NCBI RefSeq assembly: GCF_030412265.1
Contig: NZ_JAUHLN010000002.1
Location: forward strand, 1,116,001 to 1,180,000
Source of the DNA: Fictibacillus terranigra
GTDB lineage: Bacteria; Bacillota; Bacilli; Bacillales; Fictibacillaceae
Direction of reading: 5' to 3'
Length of the DNA stretch: 64,000 nt
Shown here: positions 904 to 10,411 of the stretch, piece by piece
How positions within the stretch are numbered: position 1 is the stretch's first letter
How the letters are laid out: each line of letters begins with the position of its first letter
Position numbers and translations under genes: made by a program
The notes under the pieces: generated by a model
Told to the model about the DNA's origin: nothing
What the model saw: the letters and a program-made list of their open reading frames with translations, nothing else
Databases searched by the model: none

Positions 904-1700
904 TCAGGAGGGACGGCGAAAAATCTTGAACGGCTCCAGCTCGGAATCAGCAGGAAAGAGCGGAGTGAACTTGGGATCATTTTGCATTAAGTCAGAAACG
1001 GTTACACATTTGAATCCCCTTTTCTTCAGCTCAGGCAGCACGATATTTAATGCATCAATGGTCTGCCTTCGATTACCGCCTGAATCATGCAGCAGGATAA
1101 TATCTCCATTATGGACATTCGAAAGGATATGGTTCGAAATGTAGCCGGCTCCCGGATTACGCCAGTCTTTTGGATCCTGATGCCACGACCAGAGAATGAT
1201 TTTATACCCATTTTTACTGGAATAGTTAATAATTCTTTTATTCAGTGTTCCGCCTGGTGGCCGAAACAGCTTCACTTCCGTATGCTGAACCTTTTGTATC
1301 ATCTGTTCCGTTTTGTTTACTTCTTTAGAAAACATTCGTTTAGAAGAAAAACAAAAATTATGGGGATGGGTATACGTGTGATCTCCCAATTCATGGCCTT
1401 CTTTAATTTCTCTTTTTATGATATCCGGGTTGTTTTTCATATGCCGCCCGACAAGAAAGTGGCTTTTGCATCATACTTTTTTAGAACATCCAAAATCTTC
1501 GGAGTGTATTTCGGATTCGGCCCATCATCAAATGTGATGGCTACTTCTTTTTTGGGCGTTGGAATGTCCCAGATGACCTGTCCCTTTTTCTCATAATATT
1601 TCCGTTCTACTTTATAGCCAAAGACAGGAGAAGACGGCTGCAGCAGTATAAATCCTGACATGATCCCCAATAGTACAGTCAACCATCTCTTTTGTATCAT
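904..1700 (-). pseudogene. Polysaccharide deacetylase (NodB fold), frameshifted
   Basis: The N-terminal part (1437-1700) has a signal-peptide-like segment and the first NodB motif '[17 protein letters not shown]'. The C-terminal part (904-1440) is in another frame and carries 'GHELGDHTYTHP', 'RPPGG' and 'DIILLHDSGGNR', the remaining metal and catalytic motifs of family 4 carbohydrate esterases. Joining them by restoring one base near 1450-1456 gives 'DAKATF(F)VGRHMKNNP', exactly the expected continuation. A GGGAGGG site precedes a GTG/ATG pair at 1700-1703. Such secreted enzymes remove N-acetyl groups from peptidoglycan or chitin-like glycans. A single missing base may be a sequencing error or a true inactivation. 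Confidence 0.8.
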
Positions 1701-1770
1701 CACCCGTTTCCCTCCCGTCCAATTCCTGTTTATGATGAAGCAAAACGGAGAAAACAATCCGTATAAATGA

Positions 1771-1809
1771 AAAAGGCACCACCGTTTACATAAGGTGGTG
1801 CCTGGCACC
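1771..1809 (-). terminator. Terminator downstream of comK, with 13-bp palindrome
   Basis: GGCACCACC (1775-1783) pairs with GGTGGTGCC (1794-1802); on the minus strand the stem is followed by five T residues. The right arm overlaps GGTGCCTGGCACC (1797-1809), a 13-base palindrome that occurs again at 20515-20527. Confidence 0.7.
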
Positions 1810-1833
1810 CTTACAATTTCTTTTTTGGTTAAG

Positions 1834-2356
1834 TTAAGGCCGGAAAAACCTTTGAACAAAAGGTGTATTATTTTCATTGATCCGTAGTTCCAATATAAAA
1901 CGATAATGTGTGGCACGATGGATTTTAGCTTCAAGCGTACTTTTAACCTGGTTGACTGAAATGAAGGTATCATTTGAAAAGATGATGTCTGATGTGTCAG
2001 AGGAGGTTGCCATGACCTGCTTTACATGAGCCTGGGCAATCCAAATGCAAGTGTCGCTGTTCGGAGATTCAAGAGGTATAAAAAAAGATGCCAAGCTGCT
2101 CACTGATGACGATCGGAGCACGTGACCGAATGCCCATAATGAGTGATGCACCGTCTTTCCGTCCCTTATAACTCGATCCGTAGTAGCCGCAGCTAAATGT
2201 AACAACAGCCTTTGGCTTCCCGCACACACACAGTGTTCTGTCCCTTTCAAGAACCTTCGTATGTACTTTGCCGTACTCATCGTAGAAAGGCAGTAATGCC
2301 ATGGTCTCTGTATTGATCCCATACTGTTTTTTTGAAACCATCACCTTATTTGTCAT
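1834..2356 (-). pseudogene. comK: Competence transcription factor ComK, split by a T7 homopolymer
   Basis: ComK is the master activator of genetic competence in Bacillus. The first part matches B. subtilis ComK around 'SCGYYGSSYKGRKDG' and ends 'EQLGIFFYTS' at a stop. The next frame continues with '[19 protein letters not shown]' and '[19 protein letters not shown]', the matching ComK C-terminal region. The break is exactly at a run of seven T (minus strand, 2080-2086); six T would give one frame of 173 codons, close to the family length of about 190. The ATG at 2354-2356 has a GAGAGGGG site upstream. It could be a real null allele, a slippery phase-variable tract, or a base-calling error. 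Confidence 0.85.
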
Positions 2357-2469: not shown

Positions 2470-2522
2470 ATTATACCAAAAATTCTGAAATTTTCTACAG
2501 CATTTTACAAAATCATCCTTTT
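2470..2522 (-). promoter_or_regulatory. Probable comK promoter region
   Basis: On the minus strand a perfect TATAAT (plus ATTATA, 2470-2475) has no good -35 element. Instead two A/T half-site pairs lie upstream: AAAA...TTTT at 2479-2494 (8-base gap) and AAAA...TTTT at 2509-2522 (6-base gap). ComK boxes have the form AAAA-N5-TTTT and comK is autoactivated, so these are imperfect candidates only. Confidence 0.35.
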
Positions 2523-2647: not shown

Positions 2648-2857
2648 TTATTTCTGTTCCATGGCCTCCGCTTTTTTTATTCGGTCCCACTGCTTTCTCG
2701 CATCTTCTTTTAACTTTTGGTTCGTACTGCTGTTCAGATCCTGAGCTGTTGCTCTCACCAATCGCTTTCCCTGAAAGTCCATAAATTGAATGATAATTTC
2801 ATTAGTAACCGCCATCCTTTCCTTATACATAAAATGATAGCGAATGTGCTCATCCAA
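2648..2857 (-). CDS. Small SOS-controlled protein of unknown function
   Basis: A 69-residue, highly charged soluble protein with no membrane segment; its C-terminal half is helical and rich in Lys/Glu/Asp ('NQKLKEDARKQWDRIKKA'). I do not recognise the family. The TTG at 2855-2857 was preferred over a GTG at 2864-2866 because AGGGGGTG lies six bases before the TTG, while it overlaps the GTG. A near-consensus promoter and a perfect LexA box sit directly upstream, so it is probably induced by DNA damage. It lies next to comK. It is not YneA (no LysM domain, no transmembrane helix) and I see no YolD-type motif. Confidence 0.7.
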   Translation of the reverse strand: MDEHIRYHFMYKERMAVTNEIIIQFMDFQGKRLVRATAQDLNSSTNQKLKEDARKQWDRIKKAEAMEQK

Positions 2858-2877
2858 ATTTACCACCCCCTAACAAA

Positions 2878-2921
2878 CGAACATTTGTTCTCATTATAAA
2901 ATAACACTCTGCCCTTTACAA
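2878..2921 (-). promoter_or_regulatory. LexA (SOS) box on a sigma-A promoter
   Basis: Minus-strand -35 TTGTAA (plus 2916-2921), 17-base spacer, -10 TATAAT (plus 2893-2898). Immediately downstream is CGAACATTTGTTCT (2878-2891), which fits the Bacillus LexA/DinR consensus CGAAC-N4-GTTC in both arms. The position, just after the -10, is ideal for repression. Confidence 0.85.
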
Positions 2922-3029: not shown

Positions 3030-3149
3030 ATGAAAAAGTTTTCATATTGCGGCCCAATAAAACAGGGAGACTCAGAACTGAGTCTCCCTCTTCATTGGCT
3101 GGCAAACAGAAGCACTAAAAATTATATTGATCAATATTGTCTTTTGTAA
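3030..3149 (+). CDS. Possible 39-residue peptide with strong RBS
   Basis: The ATG at 3030 follows AGGAGGGTGATCTG, one of the best ribosome binding sites in the window, and a TATAAT-like element occurs near 2970. The peptide starts [17 protein letters not shown] and ends at 3149. It is doubtful because its codons run through a terminator hairpin (3065-3088) and overlap the 3' end of lsrB on the other strand. It may be a real small protein or the head of a gene whose body was lost. Confidence 0.3.
3065..3088 (-). terminator. Terminator of the lsrACDB operon
   Basis: Perfect 11-bp stem GGGAGACTCAG / CTGAGTCTCCC with a 2-base loop; on the minus strand it is followed by TGTTTTATT. It lies 26 bases past the lsrB stop codon. 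Confidence 0.85.
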
Positions 3150-4170
3150 AAATCACACGTTCAGGCAACAGGATGATGCCGCTGTCTTTAGCGGTATAAT
3201 CGTACCCCTGAACGGTATTCGGCTCAATTTTTACTTTCCCGATTCCAGGTACATCGAACGAGTCGCCAACTTTTAGATGTTTTCCTTTGACCGTCATCAG
3301 ATAGGAAACGTAGGCAGCGAGCGCTCCCTGCTGTTTGACATCCCATAAGCCAAATTGTTTTACCGTACCTCGTTTAACAAAATCCCGCATGACATTTGGT
3401 GTTGAGAATCCCGTTACCGTTACCTTTCCGGATTTTTTCAGATTTTCAGCGGCTTGTGCCATGGCCGGCAGAGCCGTCGCATCCGGACAGATGACCGCAT
3501 CTACATCAGGATAGGTTTTCAAGATCCCTTCACCCACGGATAATGATTTTTGGGCATTATTCTCACCATACTGGGTGGTAACTATTTTCCATCCTGGATA
3601 TTTTTTTGCGATGATGTCTTTTGCTTCCTTGACCCATTGATTTTGATCCGTAACCGTCGGGCTGGAATAGAAAAAAGCTACTTTGCCTTTATCTCCGATC
3701 TGAGAAGCCGTCATATCAATGAGAAGCTGCCCAAGCTGCTGAGGAGTACCCTGGTTAATATAGAACGAACGGTCCTTTGGATTCACATCTGAATCCCAGG
3801 TCAGCACCTTAACTCCTTTTTGCCTAGCACGCTTCAATGTTTGAGAGAGGCCGTCAACAGAGGTGGAAGATACCATGATCGCATCATACCCCTGGTTCAC
3901 AAAACTGTTAATGTACTTGACTTGCCCGGAAACTGTAGCTTCTGAGGGGCCGTCATATTTCAATTTAACACCGAGTTTGTCAGCCATTTCCTTTGCCCCT
4001 TCACCACCAGAAGTGAAGAACCCCACTCCAGTCAGCTTTGGTATGAACGCAAGCTTCACATCCTTGGCCTCCTTGGCCTTTTGTTTGGTGTCACCGCTGC
4101 TGCAGGCTGCCAACAATGAGATCATTAGTGCAAAAATAAGGAACAAGGATAAGGCACTTCTTCTTTTCAT
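3115..4170 (-). CDS. lsrB: AI-2 ABC transporter substrate-binding lipoprotein LsrB
   Basis: A 351-residue extracellular lipoprotein that captures the quorum signal autoinducer-2 and hands it to the LsrACD importer. The N terminus has a charged start, hydrophobic core and lipobox LLAAC with the lipidated Cys at residue 23. The mature part is a periplasmic-binding-protein type I fold with '[15 protein letters not shown]', '[19 protein letters not shown]', '[20 protein letters not shown]' and '[18 protein letters not shown]', matching LsrB rather than ribose-binding RbsB. It is the last gene of lsrACDB, 12 bases after lsrD, and a strong terminator follows. The family and the whole neighbourhood agree on AI-2 as ligand. 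Confidence 0.9.
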
Positions 4171-4182
4171 CTCATTTCCCCC

Positions 4183-5184
4183 TTAGTACATAAGATCAGA
4201 CGAATTCGATTTCCTTTGCCTAAACCATTGCATGACTTTCTGAAATGAACTTTGCCTTGCCATGACTGACAAGATGAGCATCGCTCCAATGACAATACTC
4301 GCCTGTTCACTCGTCAGACCGATCGCTTGAAGGCCATACTGCATAAAACCGATGACAATACTGGCCAGCACTGTACCTGCGATCGATCCTCTGCCGCCGA
4401 TAATGCTCGTTCCTCCCAGAACCACTGCAGTAATAACAGGCAATACAGCTTCAGAACCTAGATCTGCACGTGCTGAACTGAAGTAAGATGTGAGCAGTAT
4501 GCCGCTTAAACCACCTCCCAATCCGGATAAGATATACGTGCTTAGCGATATCCATTTGATGCGCAAGCCGCTATATAAGGCAGCCTTGCTGTTAATACCG
4601 ACAAGATAGACACTTCTTCCATATTTCATAAAGTGGAGCAAAGTACAAAAAGCAGCAGTCATAACGAACAAGAACCAAACCGGGTTAGGAACTCCGAGGA
4701 AGCTTCCATTGCCAAGCTGCACGAACGCATCCGGAAACCCGCTGATTCCTTCATAGCCGGATGCCTTGGATCCGCCGGAAATAACAAGTGCTAATCCAGA
4801 AAAAAGAAACATACTCCCTAATGTCACCACAAGCGGCTGTACTCTGCTGTACAAAATGATCAGGCCATTGAACAAGCCGGCAGCCAGCCCGCAGAAGATC
4901 GCAATGATTACAGCCAGCCAAACATTCACTCCATGTGACCAAGAGACTCCCAGAATGATTGAGCAAAGACCCATGATCGAACCGATGGAAACATCAATTC
5001 CTCCTGAGATAATGACAAGTGTCATGGGAATAGCCGCTATGCTGATAAACATAAAATCGTTCATACTGAACAGAAGGTTATTCACATGAAGAAATCCCGG
5101 ACTAATCCATCCAAAAATGGCAATTTCAACAATGAATAGAAGCAGCAGAAAGAACTCCCATCTATAGAACCACTTTATCTTCAT
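4183..5184 (-). CDS. lsrD: AI-2 ABC transporter permease LsrD
   Basis: A 333-residue polytopic membrane protein of the ribose/AI-2 permease family (BPD_transp_2). Motifs 'ISGGIDVSIGSIMGL' (residues about 58-72), 'YLVGINSKAALYSGL' and 'VVLGGTSIIGGRGSIAGT' are the conserved substrate-channel and EAA-like segments. It overlaps the end of lsrC by 23 bases and precedes lsrB, so expression is coupled. It forms the import channel together with LsrC, energised by LsrA. The short basic tail after the last helix is normal. LsrC and LsrD are close paralogues; the assignment follows operon order. Confidence 0.88.
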   Translation of the reverse strand: MKIKWFYRWEFFLLLLFIVEIAIFGWISPGFLHVNNLLFSMNDFMFISIAAIPMTLVIISGGIDVSIGSIMGLCSIILGVSWSHGVNVWLAVIIAIFCGLAAGLFNGLIILYSRVQPLVVTLGSMFLFSGLALVISGGSKASGYEGISGFPDAFVQLGNGSFLGVPNPVWFLFVMTAAFCTLLHFMKYGRSVYLVGINSKAALYSGLRIKWISLSTYILSGLGGGLSGILLTSYFSSARADLGSEAVLPVITAVVLGGTSIIGGRGSIAGTVLASIVIGFMQYGLQAIGLTSEQASIVIGAMLILSVMARQSSFQKVMQWFRQRKSNSSDLMY

Positions 5185-6202
5185 ATCCGTCCTCTCCTGA
5201 CTTCGGTAGTTTAGAACGGTTCATATCTTCCTGTTCCTGCTTTTTCTTTTTTCCGTTTCCTTTCAGCCAAAGCTGAAACCGGCTGTCACCTGTCACGATT
5301 AAAAGAAGAAGAAATCCCGATATGGCATTATTCCAGTAAGCCGGAACCTTTAAAAAGACTAAAGAATGATTGATCACCTCAAGAAAGATGGCTCCCAGCG
5401 CTGCACCAAATAAAGAACCCTGGCCTCCTGACAGACTTACACCGCCAAGTACGGCTGCAGCAATGACCTGTAATTCAATTCCTGAACCTGTTTGATTCGG
5501 TACAAAACCGATATTCATGACAAACAGACAAGCAGCAATCGAGGCCGACAGACCCGAAAAAGTAAAGGCAAGCACTGTAATAAAGCGGACAGGAAGCCCG
5601 ATCAGCCTTGCTCCTGCCTCATTATCTCCTACAGCATAAAAGTAACGGCCCACCGAAAATCTTGAGAGAAAAATAAAGGCCAATACAGCCGCAATCCCCC
5701 CGATCCAAACCGGAAGCTGGATGCCTAGAAAAGCGGCCGCCGACAGTTCTTTAAAATAGTGCGGGATGTCCTCGATCCATCTTCCCTCTGTATAAAACAG
5801 CATATAACCCCTTACAATCCCGAGAGTCCCCAGTGTCATTATGATAGATGGGATGCGAAAGAATGAAACACCCAATCCATTGGCCGCCCCAATGCATAAA
5901 CCGATAACCAATGCTGCACCTACAGCAAGATATCCTGACACCCCATGAGAAAGCAATATTCCGCAGACAGCTGCAGAAAGACCCATTGTTGATCCGACGG
6001 ATACGTCAATATTCGCTGTTAATAAAACAAAGGATTGCCCAACCGCTAAAACGAGCAGGATCATGCTGGATTTTAAAATCAAACCGAGAGAATCCCCGCT
6101 TGTGAATGCAGGATTAACGATCCCAATACAGCCCACAAATAAAAAGATGAACAAAAGGATAGACGCCTCTCTAATTTGCAACAGCCTCGAAAGAACCTTC
6201 AT
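5162..6202 (-). CDS. lsrC: AI-2 ABC transporter permease LsrC
   Basis: A 346-residue permease with about nine or ten hydrophobic segments, paired with LsrD. Family motifs 'LLTANIDVSVGSTMGLSA', 'YAVGDNEAGARLIGL' and 'AVLGGVSLSGGQGSLFGA' are in the expected order. The start ATG overlaps the lsrA stop as ATGA (6199-6202), a typical translational coupling. The C-terminal tail is unusually polar ('KGNGKKKKQEQEDMNRSKL') and its coding region contains the start of lsrD. Function: one half of the transmembrane channel for autoinducer-2 uptake. Confidence 0.88.
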   Translation of the reverse strand: MKVLSRLLQIREASILLFIFLFVGCIGIVNPAFTSGDSLGLILKSSMILLVLAVGQSFVLLTANIDVSVGSTMGLSAAVCGILLSHGVSGYLAVGAALVIGLCIGAANGLGVSFFRIPSIIMTLGTLGIVRGYMLFYTEGRWIEDIPHYFKELSAAAFLGIQLPVWIGGIAAVLAFIFLSRFSVGRYFYAVGDNEAGARLIGLPVRFITVLAFTFSGLSASIAACLFVMNIGFVPNQTGSGIELQVIAAAVLGGVSLSGGQGSLFGAALGAIFLEVINHSLVFLKVPAYWNNAISGFLLLLIVTGDSRFQLWLKGNGKKKKQEQEDMNRSKLPKSGEDGYEDKVVL

Positions 6203-7707
6203 GGAGCAGTTACCTCCTCTTCTACACCGAAGGAAGCACTCGTGATTTGATCAAGTGTAATGGCATCGTTCTCCAGTTTTTTGACGAGCTTTCCTTCGTG
6301 CATAACCCAAACATGGTCACTCAGGGCCATTATTTCTTCAGGATCAGAGGAAATAAGAACGATGCTGATTCCTTTTTTCTTCAGCTCTGAAATTAATTCA
6401 TAGATATCCATCCGTGCACTCGCATCGATCCCTCTAGTAGGCTCATCAAACAGAATGACTTTTGGATCGGCAGCGAGAAATTTTCCTAACACAATTTTTT
6501 GCTGATTTCCTCCTGATAGAGACTCGGCAGACTGGCAGCTATTTAACGCCCTGATACTAAGCTGTCTGAGGTACTGTTCCGCTATCTTTTGTTCTTGCTT
6601 AAACGGAAGGAACCATCCTTTCCCTTTATGCAGTATGGCTGAGGTTAAATTTCCTTTTAGCGAAGCAATCGAAAATACGCCATGAGCACTCCGATCTTCC
6701 GGTATATAAACGAGGCCTCTGTCGATTCGCTCTCTGACAGATAAAGTGGATATATCTTCCCCGTCGAGAAAAACTTCTCCTGAAACACACTGTGATATGC
6801 CAAAAATCGCTTCGGCGAGTTCAGTCCTCCCTGCCCCGACAATTCCGGCAATCCCTGCCACTTCACCCCTCAACACATTGAACGACACAGACCGAAACCG
6901 CTTTCCAAAAAGGGTTTTAACAGTTAAAATTGGAGTTTTGTCCTCTGTCTTTTCCTCCTGTTTACAATGATCTACTGACATTGTTGAACCAAACGTTTTC
7001 CCTTCCGGCATCAGGTTCTGAATCAGCTTTTCATAGGAAAAATGAGAAACTGGGCCTGAAGCACTGATCACTCCGTCGCGCAAAACGGAAATATGATGAG
7101 CAAGCTCAAAGATTTCCGAAAAGCGGTGTGTAATATATACAATTCCTTTTCCGCTATGTGCCAGCTGTTTGACGATTTTAAAAAGGCTCGAAATTTCATG
7201 GTGGGTTAGTGTCGAGGTCGGCTCATCCAAGATCAGCAACTCAGCATCACGCATTAGCCCCCTCAGTAATTCCACCAGCTGCTGCTCGGCAATGGACAGG
7301 CTGGAAGCTAAACGAGAAAGATCCAAATTCCATCCCAGTGTAGAATTTAGTTCTCTCATCTTTTGTTTCAACACTTTCTTCGTCTGTTTGAGGCCAATCG
7401 AAATGTTTTCCTCCACGGTCATATTCGGAAAGATTAATGGTTCTTGCGGAACGAGGTAAACACCTTTCTTATGTGCCTCTCCAGGAGAGTTAAACTGCAC
7501 CGGCTCCCCTTTCATAAACAATTGTCCGGAGTCTGCCTGATAAAGCCCCGTAATAATTTTCATTAACGTAGATTTACCTGCTCCATTGCCTCCTATCAAT
7601 GCATGAATTTGGCCGGATAATACATTCATGTCCACGCCTTTTAACACGAGATTCTCAGAAAATTGCTTTTTGATCTCCGACATTTGTAACAGGGATTCCT
7701 TACCCAT
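6199..7707 (-). CDS. lsrA: AI-2 ABC transporter ATPase LsrA (two cassettes)
   Basis: A 502-residue double ATP-binding cassette protein. Cassette 1: Walker A GGNGAGKST (residues 39-47), signature variant LSIAEQQ, Walker B 'LLILDEPTSTLT'. Cassette 2: degenerate Walker A GIVGAGRTE, intact signature LSGGNQQ, Walker B 'VILFDEPTRGID'. This two-cassette layout with a degenerate second P-loop is typical of sugar and AI-2 importers (RbsA/LsrA). The ATG at 7705-7707 has GGCAGGTGAA upstream. It is the first gene of the leftward operon, divergent from lsrR, so the 7.7-7.9 kb spacer should hold both promoters. Confidence 0.9.
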   Translation of the reverse strand: MGKESLLQMSEIKKQFSENLVLKGVDMNVLSGQIHALIGGNGAGKSTLMKIITGLYQADSGQLFMKGEPVQFNSPGEAHKKGVYLVPQEPLIFPNMTVEENISIGLKQTKKVLKQKMRELNSTLGWNLDLSRLASSLSIAEQQLVELLRGLMRDAELLILDEPTSTLTHHEISSLFKIVKQLAHSGKGIVYITHRFSEIFELAHHISVLRDGVISASGPVSHFSYEKLIQNLMPEGKTFGSTMSVDHCKQEEKTEDKTPILTVKTLFGKRFRSVSFNVLRGEVAGIAGIVGAGRTELAEAIFGISQCVSGEVFLDGEDISTLSVRERIDRGLVYIPEDRSAHGVFSIASLKGNLTSAILHKGKGWFLPFKQEQKIAEQYLRQLSIRALNSCQSAESLSGGNQQKIVLGKFLAADPKVILFDEPTRGIDASARMDIYELISELKKKGISIVLISSDPEEIMALSDHVWVMHEGKLVKKLENDAITLDQITSASFGVEEEVTAP

Positions 7708-7901
7708 TGAATTCACCTGCCTTCCAATCAAACAATTTTTATACCATTTAGTTTTTGTTCGAAAAGAAAAGTTGTATTTGTAGCATTTTATCTTACTGAA
7801 TGATTCCTTAGAACCAATTTTCCATGCATTGAAGGCGGTCATAATCATTTTTGGCAGAACATATGTTGAAGCAACGGTCATATGTGGAAAGGATGGAACA
7901 C
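7708..7901. promoter_or_regulatory. Divergent lsrA/lsrR control region with candidate LsrR sites
   Basis: The 194-bp spacer between the divergent transcription units is AT-rich. Just before lsrR it holds CATATGT twice (7860-7866 and 7879-7885), 19 bases apart, the first inside the palindrome AACATATGTT. LsrR-type (SorC family) repressors bind such intergenic repeats and are released by phospho-AI-2. Identification as the operator is an inference; no promoter elements close to consensus were certain. Confidence 0.45.
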
Positions 7902-8864
7902 ATGAAAAGATCCACTTATGAGGAGAACTTGGTTGTAAAAGTTGCTTGGCACTACTATAAAAACAACCTGACACAAAATGAAATTGCGGATCTGCTCGAT
8001 CTTTCCCGAAACAAGATCGTCCGTATGCTGGAAAAAGCGCGGTCTGACGGAATTGTCCAATTTCATATTCGGGGAAGTGAAGCCAACTGTTTGAGTACCG
8101 AAAGAGAGTTTATCACAACTTTCGGGCTATCCGATGCCTTCATCATTCCAACTCCAGCATCCAGCCTATCAGACTCGTTGGCAAAGGCTGCCGCACAGTA
8201 CCTGGAGAGCACCCTGGCGTCAGAGCAGCTTCTTGGGATCGGGTGGGGGGAAGCCGTTACACGGACACTGCAGCACCTGACACTTGATCCCGCTTCCAAT
8301 GTATCCATTGTTACGCTGACTGGAGGAGTGAACTATTATTTTCAAAAAAAAAATTACTCTCTTGATGGGGGGCTGAGCAAGTTTCAGGGCCGATTCCACA
8401 TCATTCCTGCACCGTTTCTTGCCTCGTCACAACAAATGGCATCAAGTATTCTTTCCGAGCCTTCTGTGGGTGACATCCTCGAACTCGCCGATGTATCCTC
8501 TGTCATACTCGTCGGAATCGGCGGATTGTCACCCGATGCCACCATTATTAAAGAGGAAAAAATGACCTTAAAAGAAATGACCTCTATCAAAAAACAGAAT
8601 GGAGTCGGCGATATCCTCGGCCAATTTTATAATGCAGCCGGTGAGCTTCTTACCCTCCCACACCACGATCGGTTGATTGGAATACCTATCTCTAATCTAA
8701 AAGGATTGAAAAATGTAATCGGAGTCGCAGGAGGAGAGACGAAGATCGACGCCATTTACGGAGCTTTGAAAGGGGGATACGTTCAAACGCTGATCACCGA
8801 TGAAGAAAGTGCGATTCGATTAATGAAGAAGGAGGCGACAAAAAAAGAATGGATGCCATCCTAG
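7902..8864 (+). CDS. lsrR: Lsr operon repressor LsrR (SorC/DeoR-type)
   Basis: A 320-residue sugar-binding transcriptional regulator. Residues about 20-47 form the helix-turn-helix ('LTQNEIADLLDLSRNKIVRM'); the rest is the SorC effector domain with 'LLGIGWGEAVTRTL', 'IVTLTGG' and 'VILVGIGGLSPDATII'. In Lsr systems this repressor is inactivated by phosphorylated AI-2 made by LsrK. The ATG at 7902 follows AAAGGA by a suitable distance; a TTG at 7851 is open but lacks such a site. The gene overlaps lsrK by 16 bases. Confidence 0.9.
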   Translation: MKRSTYEENLVVKVAWHYYKNNLTQNEIADLLDLSRNKIVRMLEKARSDGIVQFHIRGSEANCLSTEREFITTFGLSDAFIIPTPASSLSDSLAKAAAQYLESTLASEQLLGIGWGEAVTRTLQHLTLDPASNVSIVTLTGGVNYYFQKKNYSLDGGLSKFQGRFHIIPAPFLASSQQMASSILSEPSVGDILELADVSSVILVGIGGLSPDATIIKEEKMTLKEMTSIKKQNGVGDILGQFYNAAGELLTLPHHDRLIGIPISNLKGLKNVIGVAGGETKIDAIYGALKGGYVQTLITDEESAIRLMKKEATKKEWMPS

Positions 8865-10411
8865 CACTAGATGCTGGAACAGGAAGTATTCGTGCAGTTG
8901 TATTCGATACGAAAGGCAAACAACTGGCAATGTCACAGCAGGAATGGGATCATCCAGCAGATCCGCGCTTTCCCGGCTCCATGAACTTTGATGTAACCGA
9001 GAACTGGAGAGTAACGGCCGAATGCATCCGGGCGGCCATACAGGAATCCGGGATATCACCTTCATGCATCAAAGCAATCAGTGCAACAAGCATGCGGGAA
9101 GGTTTTGTTCTGTATAACAAGGAAGGTAAAGAGATTTGGGCGTGTGCCAATGTGGACTCTCGAGCTTCAGAAGAAGTTTCAGACTTAAAACAGCTGCGTC
9201 CGTTTCTTGAAGAGGACCTGTACAGCCTTTCCGGCCAAACCTTTGCGCTGGGAGCATTGCCTCGTCTTTTATGGATCAAAAAAAATCAGCCTGAGATCTA
9301 TAAGGAAACAGCTACTATCACGATGCTGAACGATTGGCTCCTTTATAAACTTTGTGGAAAATTGCAAGCCGATCCTTCCAACGGGTGCACAACCGGCATT
9401 TTTAATATAAAAAAACGGTGTTGGGATGAGCAGATTACCAAGGAATGCCAAATAAAAGGCAATCTTTTTCCTCCTGTCCATGAAGCGGGGACTTTACTTG
9501 GCCACGTTACACCAGGAACAGCAAAGATCACCGGATTGACTGAAGGTACAGCAGTATTTTCAGGAGGTGGTGATGCTCAACTTGCCTCCGTCGGTGTCGG
9601 AGTAGTGAAGGAAGGGCAGACCCTTGTTTCAGGAGGAAGTTTCTGGCAGCAAGAAGTCAATGTGGCTCTGCCTGTCCCCCATCCTGAGCAGCGTATACGA
9701 ATCAATTGTCATGTATTGTCCCACCTATGGCAGTATGAAACCATTGTCTTCTTCCCAGGCCTCGTCATGCGCTGGTTTCGGGACGCCTTTTGTACAGAAG
9801 AAAAGAAACTTGCAAAAGAGCTGGGCAGAGATCCCTATGAATTGCTGGAAGAACAGGCAGCCGAAGTTCCGGTCGGTTCTTATGGCATCACGCCTATTTT
9901 CTCGGATGTAATGAATTTTATTTCCTGGCGGCATGCCTCTCCTTCTTTTACGAATCTTTCCCTCGATCCGGAACGGTGCGGCAAAAAAGAGTTATTCCGG
10001 GCGATTGAAGAAAATGCAGCCCTTGTGACACTGGGAAATTTAAAAATGATACAGGGACACACCGGTTACTATCCTGATGAAGTCATTTTTGCCGGAGGCG
10101 CCTCTAAAGGCAAGCTATGGTGCCAAATTCTTTCCGACGTACTCGGAATCAGGGTGAAGGTTCCGCTTGTGAAAGAAGCGGCTGCCCTCGGAACAGCGAT
10201 CGTTGCTGGCTATGGAGCGGGCATCTACTCTACTATTGAAAAAGCAGCCCTTGAGATCGTCCAATGGGAGAACATCTATGAACCGAATAAAGAAAATCAT
10301 GCTCTCTATGCGAAGGTTTTTGAGAAATGGCAGGCCATCTACAAGGAACATCTGTCACTCTCTGACCGGGGACTGACCAAACATATGTGGAAAGCACCTG
10401 GTTCTGTTTGA
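8849..10411 (+). CDS. lsrK: Autoinducer-2 kinase LsrK
   Basis: A 520-residue FGGY-family carbohydrate kinase. It phosphorylates the AI-2 precursor DPD inside the cell, trapping it and producing the inducer of LsrR. The N terminus has the phosphate-1 motif 'LALDAGTGSIRAVVFD'; 'FSGGGDAQLASVGVG' and 'VIFAGGASKGKLWCQILSD' are the phosphate-2 and adenosine motifs of the FGGY ATPase fold. The ATG lies inside the last codons of lsrR, with AAGGAGGCG upstream inside lsrR, indicating coupled translation. The length fits LsrK (about 520-530 aa). Confidence 0.92.
   Translation: MDAILALDAGTGSIRAVVFDTKGKQLAMSQQEWDHPADPRFPGSMNFDVTENWRVTAECIRAAIQESGISPSCIKAISATSMREGFVLYNKEGKEIWACANVDSRASEEVSDLKQLRPFLEEDLYSLSGQTFALGALPRLLWIKKNQPEIYKETATITMLNDWLLYKLCGKLQADPSNGCTTGIFNIKKRCWDEQITKECQIKGNLFPPVHEAGTLLGHVTPGTAKITGLTEGTAVFSGGGDAQLASVGVGVVKEGQTLVSGGSFWQQEVNVALPVPHPEQRIRINCHVLSHLWQYETIVFFPGLVMRWFRDAFCTEEKKLAKELGRDPYELLEEQAAEVPVGSYGITPIFSDVMNFISWRHASPSFTNLSLDPERCGKKELFRAIEENAALVTLGNLKMIQGHTGYYPDEVIFAGGASKGKLWCQILSDVLGIRVKVPLVKEAAALGTAIVAGYGAGIYSTIEKAALEIVQWENIYEPNKENHALYAKVFEKWQAIYKEHLSLSDRGLTKHMWKAPGSV

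Follow-up and report, generated by a model that had tools for sequence, protein, structure and literature searches.

The stretch of DNA analysed here, hereafter the window, covers 64,000 nucleotides of the genome of Fictibacillus terranigra (G000). On its minus strand it carries a small gene headed by a promoter-like site with a LexA box and followed by comK, which is present in two pieces. The features, in the order of transcription, are the following.

2916..2921, minus strand: -35 hexamer TTGTAA, invariant in the six-genome alignment
2893..2898, minus strand: -10 hexamer TATAAT (three relatives have TAAAAT), with 1 base between it and the LexA box
2878..2891, minus strand: LexA box AGAACAAATGTTCG, 1 base after the -10 hexamer; 20 nt from the end of the box to the TTG
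2863..2871, minus strand: ribosome-binding-like stretch AGGGGGTGG, 5 nt upstream of the TTG, proposed from the sequence
2648..2857, minus strand: small gene, 69 aa from the TTG, or 72 aa if the GTG at 2866 is used
2470..2497, minus strand: promoter-like site before comK, TAGAAA-16-TATAAT with TG, the bare pattern not being above chance
2078..2329, minus strand: 5' part of comK, frameshifted (PF06338 positions 2-85)
1879..2088, minus strand: 3' part of comK in another frame (PF06338 positions 82-151)

The open reading frame enclosing the small gene runs from 2648 to 2866 on the minus strand, with the TTG at 2857 as its best start. The promoter-like site upstream, TTGTAA-17-TATAAT (2921 to 2893, minus strand), gives 10 matches out of 12, and the LexA box lies at 2878-2891, which confirms the initial annotation of a 69-residue gene behind such a site. 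The same annotation had called the box perfect. This is slightly too strong: the core GAACNNNNGTTC matches fully, whereas a single outer base differs from CGAACNNNNGTTCG, so that the box matches at 13 of 14 positions. The boxes of the SOS regulon of Bacillota are of the consensus type CGAACRNRYGTTYG.

Such a box could be a chance match and the gene lie outside LexA control. Patterns of this kind are indeed common: the window holds two matches to the LexA core where 0.96 are expected, which is not significant alone and is unremarkable for 64 kb, and three promoter-like sites where shuffled sequences predict 3.6, so that the bare promoter pattern is not above chance. In the whole genome, GAACRNRYGTTY was matched 45 times, compared with 32 in the control. 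Since the pattern alone is not rare, the box of the small gene draws its significance from its position and its conservation.

We considered the conservation within Fictibacillus. The small gene is open in all seven genomes of the genus searched, the six other copies being 48-93% identical, and the seven named loci matching the same profile are all from Fictibacillus. According to the initial annotation, the absence of a LexA box upstream of orthologues would refute its proposal; the proposal was not refuted, the box being found at the matching promoter position in six of the seven genomes. In the remaining one (G001), which is devoid of the box, the small gene follows, at a distance of 25 nt, a gene judged TrmB-like by eye. 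Three of the six boxes have an exact core and the other three carry GTTT in its second half. An alignment of the six genomes displays an invariant -35 hexamer and a largely invariant box core, while the flanks have diverged. Together with the occurrence of the box in six of seven genomes, this alignment supports the SOS control proposed initially, which, as judged from sequence, is well supported.

How far the family extends depends on the alignment used for the search. The genus-led alignment A1, from which one locus (L011) had been excluded for a match inside a 954-aa open frame, found matches at E≤0.01 in 16 of the 397 genomes of the order, several of them weak. With alignment A2, which adds remote members to A1 but was built without weak, broken or false-looking loci (L030, L031, L035, L039-L042), matches were found in 50 of the 397 genomes, at 63 places, a count in which three likely false matches (L174, L175, L178) were kept. 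The E-values obtained with A2 are partly circular because A2 includes several of its own hits, and the rows of the remote profile A10 were chosen from such hits. The genus profile A4 and A10 have no rows in common; compared by hhalign, they aligned with a probability of 98.1% and an E-value of 1.4e-13 over 56 columns. In a phylum-wide sample, alignment A5 matched one of 398 genomes, the window genome itself, at E≤0.001, a stricter threshold than the 0.01 applied to the order. Two of the 23 best members (L031 and L079) are flagged with an internal stop. The search for homologues suggested by the initial annotation showed the protein to be no orphan, profile searches having found its family in the order (50 of 397 sampled genomes) and in the Aeribacillus phage AP45. 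Most of the weak members are devoid of a LexA box.

The core shared by the members consists, in this order, of (R)Y..M, MDF and a helix in which a Leu is conserved, and we call them the MDF-core family. For the window protein, Pfam gave no family at E≤1, NCBIfam and PHROG gave no usable match (best PHROG E-value 0.032) and PADLOC nothing usable; the remote members tested against the family libraries gave no match better than E 0.009, and A5 gave E 0.34 or worse against the PDB sequences. The statement that the protein is not a known SOS product is thus borne out as far as the Pfam, NCBIfam and PHROG libraries reach. In the open-access literature, subscription journals being largely outside, no title or abstract opening among the matches listed names the family. 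As far as sequence comparison indicates, the window protein is a member of an as yet unnamed Bacillales family whose proteins are small and soluble. Three members (L039, L094, L095) are fused to an N-terminal segment resembling a zinc ribbon, with two CxxC pairs (by eye), and two of these three have a LexA-like box.

LexA boxes were then scored at the 63 places by seeking GAACNNNNGTTC, one mismatch in the core being allowed, within 250 nt upstream; 100 dinucleotide shuffles of each region were the sole control and the bins were set by E-value. In the best bin (E<1e-12), a LexA-like box was found in 17 of 23 members for 1.34 expected, and the exact box core in 10 of 23 for 0.02 expected. The middle bin gave 5 of 14 (0.86 expected) and the weak bin 4 of 26 (2.1 expected). 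We conclude that the LexA-like box is a feature of the core family and not of its most distant relatives. It is missing within 250 nt in six of the 23 best members, one of which (L074) is preceded by a gene for mini-WYL, a stand-alone WYL domain (PF13280) protein of about 70 aa, with two boxes upstream of this neighbour. In genus g24, distant copies without a box follow a gene for a UvrD-like helicase (by eye, yjcD-like); members without a box may differ in role or may not be true relatives. In another genome (G033), a 33-aa open reading frame (1391-1492, upstream in L009) is located between a perfect CGAACATAAGTTCG and the family gene, and the box may therefore head a two-gene unit there. As regards a chance match in the window, the placement of the box on a promoter-like site, its presence in six of the seven Fictibacillus genomes and the enrichment across the family make this explanation hardly credible.

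Repression by LexA and its relief through RecA-stimulated LexA cleavage are the established SOS pathway. In an undamaged cell, LexA bound to the box just downstream of the -10 hexamer would block transcription, and upon DNA damage the RecA-stimulated cleavage of LexA would free the small gene. We consider LexA repression and damage induction very likely.

The initial annotation also saw a clue to function in the link to comK. The adjacency is real, the neighbour matching PF06338 and being split in the window, but comK as a key to function is not supported: within the 31 loci of strong members it is a repeated neighbour in Fictibacillus alone, where it decays while the small gene stays open. 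One could imagine that the LexA-controlled transcript runs into comK, so that DNA damage raises ComK and couples the SOS response to competence. The gene order would allow it: six of the seven Fictibacillus genomes have comK downstream of the small gene with the same orientation (G001 gave no match), and a scan of the same strand of the window between the two genes found no terminator pattern, which would permit read-through. Yet comK is preceded by a promoter-like site, and four relatives have, by eye, a similar stretch before comK. Moreover, two of the six genomes that have the gene carry a broken copy, and the seventh lacks it. The window copy is interrupted by a frameshift at a run of T, and the G003 copy is without its 5' third, the profile starting at position 48 of 152; four relatives have an open copy. 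The frameshift in the window may be real decay or an assembly error. Finally, among the clustered neighbours of 31 strong-member loci (flanks of about 1.5 kb), comK recurs only in Fictibacillus and is not a recurring neighbour outside the genus. We thus regard a coupling to competence as quite unlikely, and the proximity of comK is best read as local gene order. As for ComK-type sites, only one-mismatch AAAA-N5-TTTT sites were seen, without a control. A role of the small protein as a ComK regulator was considered and rejected.

The neighbours of the small gene in the window are ABC-transporter genes, comK and a deacetylase gene. The latter (904-1973, minus strand) encodes a PdaB-like polysaccharide deacetylase and is split between two frames near 1440. 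This frameshift and that of comK, within 1 kb of each other, could indicate assembly errors, as could the short frames resembling UvrX and YolD found elsewhere in the genome (L057, L063). A bacterial SET-domain protein (PF00856, E 4.7e-18) is encoded at 439-876 on the minus strand, and SET-type open reading frames are seen by eye near comK in several relatives. On the other side, positions 3115-10411 hold an LsrB-like cluster of an ABC transporter for autoinducer-2 or a sugar, with a substrate-binding protein matching NF011937 (E 1.7e-176) and, by eye, permease-, ATPase-, regulator- and kinase-like open reading frames.

The structure of the window protein was predicted with AlphaFold2 from an alignment of 8 rows. 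The model displays three strands and a C-terminal helix with a pLDDT of 84 and a pTM of 0.64, and the five models average pLDDT 71-84. A similar prediction for a phage member (12 rows) reached a pLDDT of 80 and a pTM of 0.53, with the element order b-b-b-a-a as in the window protein; the two models are not independent because the phage alignment includes the window protein. Foldseek searches of the PDB and BFVD returned no match at E≤0.001. With VIA-align, applied to predicted models only, chromo and chromoshadow chains led the lists (Z 6.1 for the window model, Z 4.8 for the phage model). For the window model, the chain 4quf_B gave Z 6.1 with an rmsd of 3.2 over 59 residues at 2% identity, and the N-terminal domain of CarD (4kbm_B) gave Z 3.7, rmsd 4.5 over 57 and 14% identity. 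Scores in this range may, as the tool warns, come from a common arrangement alone; an unrelated receptor chain also ranks among these chains with Z 5.5. No function was derived from these lists. The likeness to chromo and chromoshadow domains and to the CarD N-terminal domain is thus one of predicted sheet-plus-helix arrangement, for which we claim no homology.

The small size and the SOS box of the gene, present in six of seven Fictibacillus genomes, are also what one would expect of an SOS-induced cell-division inhibitor acting like YneA or SosA, and the initial annotation had envisaged a new division regulator. YneA and SosA are anchored in the membrane at their N-terminus. The window protein, though small and apparently SOS-controlled like them, displays no transmembrane or hydrophobic segment, the best 19-residue Kyte-Doolittle mean being 0.42, which makes a regulator of the YneA/SosA kind unlikely. 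A YneA-like gene (by eye) is in addition already present in the same genome. Division inhibition is therefore, in our opinion, a very improbable function. The genes yneA and sosA belong to the small SOS-induced genes of Bacillota (see PMC6851548). A membrane toxin was discarded as well.

Another possibility is that the small gene is an SOS-switched gene of a phage or mobile element that was domesticated in Fictibacillus, and that its product works in the induction of the phage, in superinfection control or in the replication of phage DNA and not in host repair. Several members have a mobile context. In phage AP45 the gene lies past the lysis genes, close to an end of the genome; four further viral loci from IMG/VR (L100-L103) encode members as well; genes that by eye resemble those for holins, amidases and XRE proteins stand close to other members (L033, L076, L086, L154), and a further member is found in a conjugation-like region (L007/L016). 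Other members, on the contrary, look chromosomal, being neighbours of comK, of an SRAP gene or of genes that by eye are like sigK and hfq. In tblastn searches of 50,697 phage records with two remote members, AP45 alone was found (two records of one phage), and the window protein found nothing in these phages or in plasmids; nor did the two remote members in plasmids. Scanning of the IMG/VR viral contigs with A1 and with a single member (L037) detected no relative. The same scan with the AP45 protein yielded 13 loci, one of which (L099) is AP45 itself and four of which (L100-L103) were confirmed by the profile; the other eight (L104-L111) have only a 14-residue stretch in common and were not confirmed as relatives. 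We thus judge the origin and function in a phage or mobile element unlikely, if less so than the coupling to competence, and a role in repair or damage tolerance is more probable than one in phage biology.

If the small protein indeed acts in repair or damage tolerance, mini-WYL is its candidate partner. A mini-WYL gene occurs in the fetched stretch of nine of the 23 best members, divergent from the family gene in eight cases and upstream on the same strand in one, and is lacking from the fetched stretch of the other 14. Each of the eight divergent pairs has a box upstream of the family gene. In AP45 (L098), the mini-WYL gene (957-1172) overlaps the family member (1169-1438) and the pair sits behind the boxes AGAACATATATTCG and AGAACAAACGTTCC; the four confirmed IMG/VR loci contain the pair as in AP45. 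Boxed mini-WYL genes without a detected family member are also found (L117, L118).

Mini-WYL is widespread. It was detected in 31 of 34 relatives (E≤0.01) and in 143 of 199 genomes of the order (E≤1e-8), and it is because of this wide distribution that its presence in the same genome as a family member says little. When the best-scoring 30 loci of each search were fetched (L119-L148 and L181-L210, two sets that share genomes), 29 of the 30 loci in one set and 26 of the 30 in the other had a box within 150 nt, for 1.15 and 1.06 expected. By these counts mini-WYL looks like a widespread SOS gene. The copy in the window genome (C9:864205-864396) has its own box and is located about 254 kb from the small gene. 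The protein matches the generic WYL domain and, weakly, a PHROG of unknown function, and hhalign detected no sequence likeness between its profile and the MDF-core family (0.2% for the window-side family, 2.1% for the remote members). Membership of the window protein in the WYL family was consequently rejected, these hhalign values being accompanied by the lack of a Pfam match. In two genera, g24 (L211, L212) and g21 (L072, L078), mini-WYL adjoins a sigK-like gene (by eye).

We propose that the product of the small gene is a LexA-repressed soluble SOS accessory that probably functions with mini-WYL in repair or damage tolerance, an explanation whose chances we see as evenly balanced. The protein would consist of a predicted three-stranded sheet and C-terminal helix built around the (R)Y..M...MDF core, and, acting with mini-WYL, would assist SOS repair or damage tolerance as a small accessory that binds protein or nucleic acid. 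We put a physical partnership between the two proteins at about even, and an accessory of repair or damage tolerance is our preferred reading of the small protein.

A comparison can be made with YolD (PF08863), the LexA-controlled partner of the Y-family polymerases UvrX and YqjW, which is likewise encoded by a small LexA-boxed gene in relatives of Bacillus. According to two reports, YolD is a member of the WYL superfamily (PMC6511836, PMC4012209), as is the mini-WYL neighbour of the MDF-core family. The former proposes YolD as a counterpart of UmuD and calls the experiments on YqjX, a partner of the YolD type, inconclusive (PMC6511836). The window gene differs from yolD in that it does not form an operon with a polymerase of the UvrX/YqjW type, and inspection by eye of the neighbours listed for 17 of the 31 family loci revealed no Y-family polymerase. 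YolD membership by sequence was rejected: the window protein has no Pfam match, whereas the YolD gene of the same genome does match PF08863.

The SRAP proteins (YoqW/HMCES, PF02586) offer a second comparison. They are SOS-associated, and the gene of one of them is transcribed divergently from that of a family member (L084), a LexA-like box lying in the gap, but their sequence is unrelated to that of the window family. According to one paper, SRAP domains comprise 220-260 residues and have a proposed catalytic triad (PMC3765255). This neighbour fits a damage-tolerance setting, as a single case.

A bolder conjecture, drawn by analogy and in our view rather improbable, would be that the MDF-core protein and mini-WYL form an undescribed SOS module with two subunits, found in relatives of Bacillus and in their phages and analogous to YolD/UmuD, that docks on RecA or on a translesion polymerase. 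In Fictibacillus this module would have been split, the MDF half standing upstream of comK so that SOS transcription also feeds competence. The SOS regulons of B. subtilis, E. coli and S. aureus are well studied. Two small LexA-boxed families, MDF-core and mini-WYL, recur across the order, the former without a model in the libraries searched, and both are testable candidates for missing subunits of damage tolerance in Gram-positive bacteria.

Finally, we surveyed the boxes of the window genome by inspecting 27 loci that hold 30 of the 45 matches to GAACRNRYGTTY. They include a lexA-like gene with a divergent YneA-like gene and a box between them (L059, names by eye), a UmuC/UvrX-like open frame of only 70 aa downstream of a box (L057, by eye), a YolD gene with a LexA box (L060, PF08863, E 4.4e-27) and a short YolD-like frame (L063, by eye). 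The mini-WYL gene (L062) and the window gene (L064) are boxed as well. Neither recA nor uvrB was recognised among these 27 loci, and many other matches to the pattern in this genome fall inside genes, as chance predicts. A gene of the YvrJ family (PF12841) lies behind the LexA-type palindrome CGAACATTTGTTCG (L047, G000:C8:101901). Two near-identical open reading frames of 50-55 aa with a hydrophobic N-terminus are located behind perfect CGAACAAATGTTCG (L054 and L069, G000:C9:38884 and C9:1381881), and are reminiscent of TisB, an SOS-induced membrane peptide.
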